Of a stretch of 64,000 nt of DNA, positions 19,001 to 22,000 are shown piece by piece (position 1 is the first letter of the stretch; each line of letters starts with the position of its first letter). The notes below the pieces were generated by a model. It was not told the DNA's origin. It made no database searches and saw nothing but the letters and a program-made list of their open reading frames with translations. A program made the position numbers and the translations under genes. This stretch comes from Oryzias latipes. Lineage: Eukaryota > Chordata > Actinopteri > Beloniformes > Adrianichthyidae. The stretch spans positions 15,269,582-15,333,581 of the forward strand of contig NC_019864.2 in the NCBI RefSeq assembly GCF_002234675.1, read 5' to 3'.

Positions 19001-22000
19001 AGACCGGCTGTGGGGCCAACGGCATGGTTCCTCAGGACGTGGATTACATCATCTAGTCTGTCCAGGCGGTCCTCCACTTGAGACTGAAAACATTGAAGGA
19101 CAGTCTTGAAGCATAAGCTTTGCCATCCTCGTCTTTAGACCAAGAAAGATTAAGACTCAATTTTTCCCAGAAAACCTTGAAAGACAGGTTATATGTTTTT
19201 AATCATAATCTGTATAAACTAAATTCATTAGCTTGGAAAAGATTTCGGTATAATTTCTGAGATGGCTAAATAATATATGGCTAAATACTGCAATTAGCTT
19301 TCACAGTGACGGCTAGACTGTTTTGTGAATGTGAGCAGACACCAGCTTGTTTGGTAGATGCAGACAGAAACAGGAAATTTTCATAAAATCTGAGATTTAA
19401 AAATCTGAGAATCTGAGATTTAAACTATGAGAACCTGCAAGTGTAAATATTGTAAGTCATTGTTGGATGCATATCACATTTTGACTGTTTAAACAGTATC
19501 ATTGATGATAGTAATTATGATGCTTTATTAATGTACATGTAATTTTTTTTATAAACTGTGTAGAGGATACTTTATTTAGCCTTCAAACTCCAAATGACTG
19601 TATTATTTGTCGTTTTTGCCGTTGATTTGATGTCTTTTTGGTTTTTGTTGTTGGCAGATCTAAACCTTTTCCAGGGACTACATTTGAATATTAGCTTTGC
19701 ACCTAACACTGGCACATTTAATGTTCATTAACGTGCACGGTCTTTTTAAATAACTATTAGATAAATTAAAGAAATAAATTTAGTGAAACAATTTACCTCT
19801 CATTTTAACCTTAGATTGGTTAGTCACACATATATATATATATAAATACACATACTATTAATACTATCATTATTATTATTATTGTATTATTATAAACACA
19901 ATTATGACTGTTAAATAATTTGGGTGTCATAGGCATCTTTATAGTAAATGTTTTTCTTAAGGGGCAGACTTAAAGTGTGGGTGACATGGCCTATTTTAAT
20001 AAGCCAAAATATAGTAAATAGTTTCTATTTCATGTTGCGATTGTTTTTAATATTTTTCGAAAAAGAATAAATAGCGAAAAACGCAATATAAACAACGAGG
20101 ACGGCCGCCGGCTTCACGCATTCCGCCGAATTCGCGCCGCCCTGTTTGTGACGTAACGAAAGGAAGACAAGGCAGACAACATGGCTAGCACCGATAGCGA
20201 AGCACAGAGTGATGCTACCGTCTCTATTAGCGATTTATCATCAGATGAACAGAAAGATGAAGAGGAAAGTTGCGGAGATTATCATGATGATGAGTCACTT
20301 TTGCAACCGTATCGATTCGAACCCTTTTGCGAAAGTGAGGAGGATATAGCAGAAAGTAGTAGGTCTAGTGATCATGCCGATCATGACGATAGCCAGCATG
20401 AAGATTCGGCTAGACTCCAGTAAGTCTAAAAAATGTATAAAATTAAATTACTCCACTTACCCTAAAATATACTCAAAATGTCCCCTTTTGGCCTAATCTA
20501 AACAAAGGTAAACACTGGTTTTCAACCCAATTTACAAAATAAATGTCACAAAATAAAAGTTTCCCAGATGGTACTACTCTTTAGTTAACAAAGTCACTGT
20601 ATACCATTAACAACTGTGGAACATTAACAGTTTTACCCGTTTGAACCCGTTTGAAACCTTTTCTCGTGCGCGCGCGCGCGCTCACACACACACAGTTCAG
20701 TTTACTCACGGTACCGGCACCTCAAAAGCAAAAGAAAAAAAACGTTGCAGGCCTGTTGCTTCTCTTGCAAAACATTGAGTGCGTTGAAATACTCCAGTTG
20801 GATCCAAGGACAACAGAAAACACGACTACTTCGCCTCAATGTGATCCATCGTGATGCACACTAGCTTAGCAGCCTCCGCTCCCGACTCCAGCGCCGTCCT
20901 CTCCGACCCAGAAAACGGCTCGCTCGCTTCCAGCTCACCCGCCTTTCCTCGACTCAGAAGCCAAGATCCTCCTCCCAACTCTCCGTTCAAAATTCTTCGT
21001 TTGTGTCCCGGTTTTTGTCCCTTCGAAAACGCAGACTTCTCTCCTGCAGATCTGGAGGGAAAAATCCTTCGCCGTCCACCTTCTTGAACTTTCCCCTTTT
21101 CAGCAGCGTTTCTTGTTTGGGAATTTTATACACAGATACACTTTCAGTAGATGTATTGCTACATCCAGCTGCCACACAACGACTTGGCATGTTGATGATT
21201 AACAGATTTAAACACGAGAGAAACGAAGACTACCGGTTTTGTTTACATGCTGTCCGAAGCGGAACTGCGAAAATCAACGCCTTTCATGACGTCACAGGTC
21301 ATATCGGGTTCACTTCCAGCCTGCGCTCTAGCGGCAGATCCAAATCTCTGATTCCTTCGAAAGATGTCTATTATTCATATGCTTCGGATTTTTTTCGACG
21401 CGAACTATTGGTATCAATAGAATCAGCGTTTAAAGGGCTTTTTTATTTGACAAAGTTGTTCAAAGCATGGCATCCACACTTTAAATAAGCTAGGCCTCTA
21501 CCTGCTCCTTTTCAAACATGTTTTGCATTGTTATTTTTATAATGTTGTTGTCTTCAATTCAATTTTATTTATATAGCCCAATATTACAACAATAACCATC
21601 TCAATAGGCTTCTCTTGTCAAACACCAGTTGTTTAAAAAAAACACAAAACAGAAATACATGTTTCTGTTGTTGTTATTGTTGCTACTATTACCAGTGTTA
21701 CTTTTAAGTTTGTATCATATTGATTGCATTGTAATTAATACCATGTTTAAAACAAATTTCCAAGACCTCATTTTTGTTTATAATATTAGATTTTTTAACG
21801 GCTTAACCAATTAATTTAATAAAGTTTAATTAGATACAAAAGGTGATTTGGGGAGTTTTTTTACCATTGATATGAGAGATGACTCATAGTGAGGGGAGAC
21901 TGGTGTTTGAACTGAACTGCGGGGCCAAATGTTGGTACCTGCGATGAGAAAAAGAACAAGAGGTTTAGTATGCAGAAATAAATCTACAAATGAGTTTAAC

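Follow-up and report, generated by a model that had tools for sequence, protein, structure and literature searches.

The unit at positions 19974-21480 of the window, the whole 64,000-nucleotide stretch of medaka DNA that was analysed, is a 1507-bp DNA transposon with TTAA directly outside both of its ends, and it is a real, exactly delimited and very young non-autonomous member of its family. Very probably, this is a family of the Kolobok superfamily, of the Kol0 type, whose full-length element measures about 5 kb and carries two genes. Kolobok transposons, in the account given by Kojima & Bao (2022, PMC9587614), show TTAA duplications and 5'-RR and YY-3' ends, and the Kol0 lineage encodes a transposase together with KolX, a protein with the cytoplasmic ballast fold of P2X7; the same authors proposed a fusion with KolX as the origin of P2X7, the transfer having gone from transposon to receptor. 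The sequence-only reading of this DNA had suspected an undescribed kind of two-gene element, a claim to novelty that falls away given that the Kol0 pair of transposase and KolX already appears in that 2022 article (PMC9587614). What is new here is a very young vertebrate family of a known Kolobok kind.

As a non-autonomous derivative, the window copy retains ~450 and ~383 bp from the two outer parts of the element, on either side of ~680 bp of foreign DNA, and it is unable to make either whole protein. From left to right, it is composed of the following features.

19970-19973, strand not applicable: left TTAA target-site duplication, TTAA also flanking all but one of the genome copies examined
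19974-19988, plus strand: left terminal inverted repeat, starting with 5'-AG, AGTGTGGGTGACATG, with 90 exact left ends genome-wide
19974-20420, plus strand: left segment common to the long copies, corresponding to 1-432 of the L014 element, by comparison with the long copies
20149-20156, plus strand: CRE-type TGACGTAA, 24 bases before the KolX ATG, a motif by sequence only
20181-20420, plus strand: truncated KolX exon 1 of 80 codons, containing QPYRFEP, in the frame MASTDSEA...ARLQ
20421-20423, plus strand: TAA stop right after the truncated KolX exon 1, created by the deletion junction, by comparison with the long copies
20421-21097, strand not applicable: foreign filler, not in the long copies and probably an antisense LTR fragment, by comparison with the long copies and with dispersed repeats
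20987-21190, minus strand, starting at 21190: chimeric frame made of the first 32 residues of the THAP transposase and then filler to the stop
21098-21480, minus strand: right segment common to the long copies, corresponding to 4607-5017 of the L014 element, by comparison with the long copies
21287-21294, strand not applicable: CRE-type TGACGTCA, 96 bases before the THAP ATG, likewise recognised from its letters alone
21466-21480, minus strand: right terminal inverted repeat, AGTGTGGATGCCATG, an inverted match to the left end
21481-21484, strand not applicable: right TTAA target-site duplication, the flank being read directly

The limits that had been drawn earlier from the inverted repeats and the TTAA flanks thus hold to the base (19974-21480). 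The termini read AG...CT, as the Kolobok rule of 5'-RR and YY-3' has it, and the end pair is unique in the window among TTAA-flanked 15-mers lying within 6 kb of each other and alike in at least 13 of 15 positions. Thirty dinucleotide shuffles yielded two comparable end pairs, both in a single shuffle and neither with seven or more G/C. Across the parts of the unit the observed/expected ratio of CpG is 1.0-1.4, as against 0.42 for the window, which is consistent with a recent insertion. The 1507-bp unit had no match in Rfam, and searches of viral contigs with the end pattern and with KolX exon 1 found no relatives.

The same reading had described two inward-facing gene starts, a THAP start on one side and a QPYRFEP exon on the other, each with a CRE-type site upstream. 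Both frames exist and both sites are present (TGACGTAA at 20149 and TGACGTCA at 21287), the two motifs recurring in the four long copies L014-L017; neither frame is a whole exon, since both are truncated. KolX exon 1 of the window copy breaks off within a short shared tract, ACTCCA, whereas in the long copies it continues to ...LQNTA with a donor at ATG/GTTAGT. A native splice donor at the GTAAGT that follows the QPYRFEP frame is ruled out, as this GTAAGT was made by the deletion junction. The THAP remnant of the window copy reaches 15.8 bits with the Pfam THAP model, below the cut-off of 23.9, and no THAP structure was among the PDB matches of its frame; the window copy is without a complete THAP and without the DDE motifs, both of which were found in L014.

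The source genome was searched (734 Mb in 25 contigs), and the end pattern occurs in it 184 times (93 forward and 91 reverse), whereas the control pattern gave 0 and 0. The 1507-bp query returned 132 first-look candidates, the best 40 of which, including the window copy, were scored. All 40 match the unit over 1-1507, their left flanks are distinct and hence mark 40 different sites, and each is flanked by a 4-bp duplication (39 TTAA/TTAA and one TGAA/TGAA). Sixteen of these best-scoring copies, the window copy and 15 others, are identical over the 1507 bp. Of the 40, 29 measure exactly 1507 bp, and these differ from the window copy at 26 places in total, a divergence of ~0.06% which is biased low because these copies are the best-scoring candidates. 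The TGAA/TGAA copy (L044, G000 C1:16584064-16585570) shows that the 4-bp repeat arises by genuine duplication and does not just reflect a preferred site, and also that the choice of TTAA as target is not absolute. A further 34 loci, three of them without a pair of ends (L019, L026 and L028) and one with two elements, supplied 32 paired elements, all flanked by TTAA/TTAA. Together, 71 of the 72 elements with both ends lie between TTAA repeats, the remaining one between TGAA repeats. The 32 paired elements include five long ones, three of 1.75-1.81 kb, 16 of ~1.5 kb, seven without filler and one of 1356 bp (L087), the left end of which is reduced to 221 bp, with TTAA duplications still present. 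The census gives lower bounds, namely at least 72 elements with both ends, at least five of them long.

The ends of the window copy recur in five long copies of 3.7-5.2 kb, namely L014-L017, with lengths of 4684-5215 bp, and the 3675-bp second element of L018, every one of which sits between TTAA repeats. The sequence-only reading had made its proposal depend on long copies that keep these ends and encode both a THAP transposase and the C-terminal cysteine domain of P2X7, and such copies were found with both genes. A genome search with the P2RX7_C family gave five matches from six first-look candidates, and all five are located inside the long copies. By an independent route, four pairs of ends more than 2 kb apart were seen among the end matches listed (contigs 1 to 15), and these are L014-L017. 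QPYRFEP exon 1 and two further exons join, by predicted splicing, into a KolX frame of 211 amino acids which is open in all five long copies and has the landmarks, in order, ...QNTAWCQCQCCAVMPLVMECICCREI...SFQTCCLNPDVLR...IAYRQF...LPSCAV...IRSTF...GQYVGF. For the one joined product scanned, that of L014, the Pfam P2RX7_C match scored 70.4 bits (E 2.5e-19), and the PDB matches were P2X7 chains (9e3q, 6u9v and two others, E 9.1e-8 to 9.3e-6). The suggested relation of the QPYRFEP frame to P2X7-like proteins is therefore borne out: it is exon 1 of a KolX gene containing P2RX7_C. This exon is acidic, and the two exons after it make up the P2X7 ballast domain of the zinc-cysteine type. Taken singly, exon 1 and exon 2 of L014 had no Pfam match, nor had exon 2 a PDB match. 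The host p2rx7 was not among the five P2RX7_C matches, a search made exon by exon from which its absence from the genome does not follow. With a second gene, KolX, that carries the ballast domain and is open in five of five long copies, the family appears to fit the Kol0 lineage.

The transposase of the long copies lies on the strand opposite to KolX, reads toward it and combines THAP with DDE. The THAP domain of L014 covers 87 of 87 positions of the Pfam model (66.6 bits) with its C2CH residues and an AIPTIF box of the AVPTIF-like type, and it matched the structures of THAP1, THAP2 and THAP11. Once the transposase exon pieces of L014 were joined, the Mutator-like transposase model reached 28.5 bits, against a cut-off of 26.5, and MULE stayed under its cut-off at 19.7 bits; single exons were below the Pfam cut-offs (19.6 bits for Mutator and 22.6 bits for MULE). 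Read by eye, L014 and L017 both show the motifs GDGRSD, ITDRH, DVWH and SLEAFH, that is, a DDE triad with C/DxxH between the second D and the E. The last transposase exon piece ends at L014:1594 and the KolX frame at L014:1589, so that the two genes are arranged tail to tail. A stop, gap or frame break, or a partial or missing exon, affects one or more transposase pieces in each of four long copies; the query pieces were taken from the fifth, L014, for which splicing is a prediction. Transposase exon 3 varies in length, with ~225 bp of the L017 element (~1883-2107) absent from L014, and 264 bp of L014 missing from the L015 element at ~3013.

The middle of the window unit, ~448-1124, is absent from the long copies. 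A longer filler is carried by the three copies of 1.75-1.81 kb (L025, L027 and L030), measuring 933 bp in L025, where it directly follows long-element position 453; the 1.5-kb class is without the first ~250 bp of this filler, its junction lying in the shared ACTCCA tract. A genome search with the initial 241 bp of the long filler gave 28 matches, eight of which are, by their coordinates, copies of this transposon family, and the others include two pairs on the same strand, spaced 7.4 and 8.0 kb. Two of these dispersed repeats resemble the filler at ~92% over 925 bp; the filler begins at their TG and stops short of their other end, and CCAATTTTA precedes both the filler and the second repeat of one pair. 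These features suggest that the filler is a probable antisense LTR fragment with a few bases of leader. A captured host gene was also sought in this GC-rich filler and rejected, as two of three frames had no Pfam match and the third had one below the cut-off (E 0.084), and PDB matches were none or at E 0.77. The likely order of events is an internal deletion with acquisition of filler, a second small deletion, and amplification.

The unit seems to lie in an intron of an E-protein gene on the minus strand, with a helix-loop-helix exon at 16502-16900 (minus) and, read by eye, another exon at about 22.7-23.1 kb; the gene is presumably tcf12. The neighbour at 44550-47918, which had no Pfam match, is taken to be rfx7-like, and the one at 53.6-62.7 kb, with Ig and fn3 Pfam matches, protogenin-like. 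A second, older repeat family is also present in the window in five copies, the aligned pieces of which are 67-87% alike.

6395-6523, plus strand: older repeat copy, partial
9356-9975, plus strand: older repeat copy
15345-15931, minus strand: older repeat copy
16884-17349, plus strand: older repeat copy
35337-35890, plus strand: older repeat copy

In four of these five copies the sequence opens with TTAA, then AG or AA, and has a CCACTC-like end; three of the five have a frame like KolX exon 1. Against the genome, the copy at 15345 gave 7663 first-look candidates, and most of the 40 that were scored were 68-78% identical. There may thus be thousands of old short elements that carry a KolX-like start.

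For the 1507-bp unit, a mechanism can be proposed in which transposase from the full-length copies would bind the ends of the unit through its THAP domain and, supplied from elsewhere, would transfer the short copies to TTAA sites by a cut-and-paste reaction. The two outer parts of ~450 and ~383 bp would then persist mainly as carriers of sequence required in cis, and the two gene starts were probably kept through their overlap with such sequence and not through any action of the truncated frames. L087 suggests that KolX exon 1 is dispensable in cis, unless this copy lost it after insertion. The most likely role of KolX would be that of a helper of transposition. A more far-reaching version, in which the family is moving in a laboratory fish now or did so until very recently, the full-length copies supply all that is needed, and KolX, as parent of the P2X7 ballast domain, is a required partner whose zinc and nucleotide binding served transposition before it served an ion channel, is put forward tentatively and is, on balance, unlikely.

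Less likely again, and on the whole improbable, is that the derivative owes its retention to some activity of its truncated frames, for instance a short THAP peptide or an acidic KolX peptide that represses or aids transposition. The KP deletion derivative of the P element is a precedent for such an effect, and both gene starts are indeed retained in most copy classes, with the 127-residue THAP stretch open in three of the six filler-less copies scanned (L028, L029 and L031). However, the THAP frame is broken in the other three of those six (L020, L021 and L033; L081 and L086 lay outside the scan), and the commonest class retains no DNA-binding domain, its THAP being truncated beyond residue 32. 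The copies are also too young for open frames to reveal selection. It is very improbable that the family is a previously undescribed two-gene kind of transposon that captured a host P2X7-like gene as passenger; two genes do lie between the ends, the second resembling a domain of a host receptor, but Kol0 with the same gene pair has been published and its authors argue for the direction from transposon to receptor (PMC9587614), and the TTAA and the 5'-RR/YY-3' ends match Kolobok. A piggyBac-type element can be practically dismissed, for although piggyBac also duplicates TTAA and a few of its families have a KolX-like protein, the 5'-AG ends follow the Kolobok rule as set out in PMC9587614, the KolX of the long copies retains its cysteine-rich part, and the eight L014 frames or joined pieces scanned gave THAP and Mutator-like Pfam matches and none to a piggyBac model.

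Read as a young Kolobok family, the medaka copies give one-genome, base-by-base support to the 2022 proposal that the ballast domain of P2X7 belongs to a transposon gene. The five P2RX7_C matches inside transposon copies imply that P2X7-like genes in such genomes need to be checked as transposon genes. The main interest lies in the youth of the family, thanks to which excision could realistically be assayed and the need for KolX examined; the function of KolX and the origin of P2X7 would thereby become testable. For medaka, a survey covering four fish genomes (2016, PMC4746887) lists 14 copies and 2,093 bp of Kolobok, and the present family was missed by it. Judged by title and abstract, none of the literature found on Kolobok with KolX, medaka, THAP with TTAA, or excision treats this medaka family.

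Among known systems, the family is closest in make-up to Kol0 elements of the Kolobok-1_XT type, which, as far as PMC9587614 describes them, share TTAA, 5'-RR ends, a DDE transposase and KolX with the P2X7 ballast domain; it differs from the Kol0 examples in being very young and in having as its dominant form a 1.5-kb derivative with a probable retroelement filler, and its placement in this lineage is provisional. Xenopus has Kolobok elements with AG ends and THAP (Hikosaka & Konishi 2018, PMC6004289), and the XKol and T2-MITE elements described in that article resemble the medaka family in TTAA, AG ends, a THAP and DDE transposase and non-autonomous relatives. The likeness of the ends themselves to XKol A1 is weak and suggestive only, the left end being alike in 11 of 16 bases, which 2.7% of the AG-starting 16-mers of the window equal, and the right end in only 9 of 16, which 30% of them equal. 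Ballast domains are found across animals (Rump et al. 2020, PMC7016195), and the main text of that article does not contain the words THAP or transpos; the zinc-coordinating cysteine domain of the P2X7 and nanor-like proteins it covers is also present in KolX. Unlike P2X7, which is an ion channel, the KolX of medaka is without the P2X part and begins with an acidic first exon.
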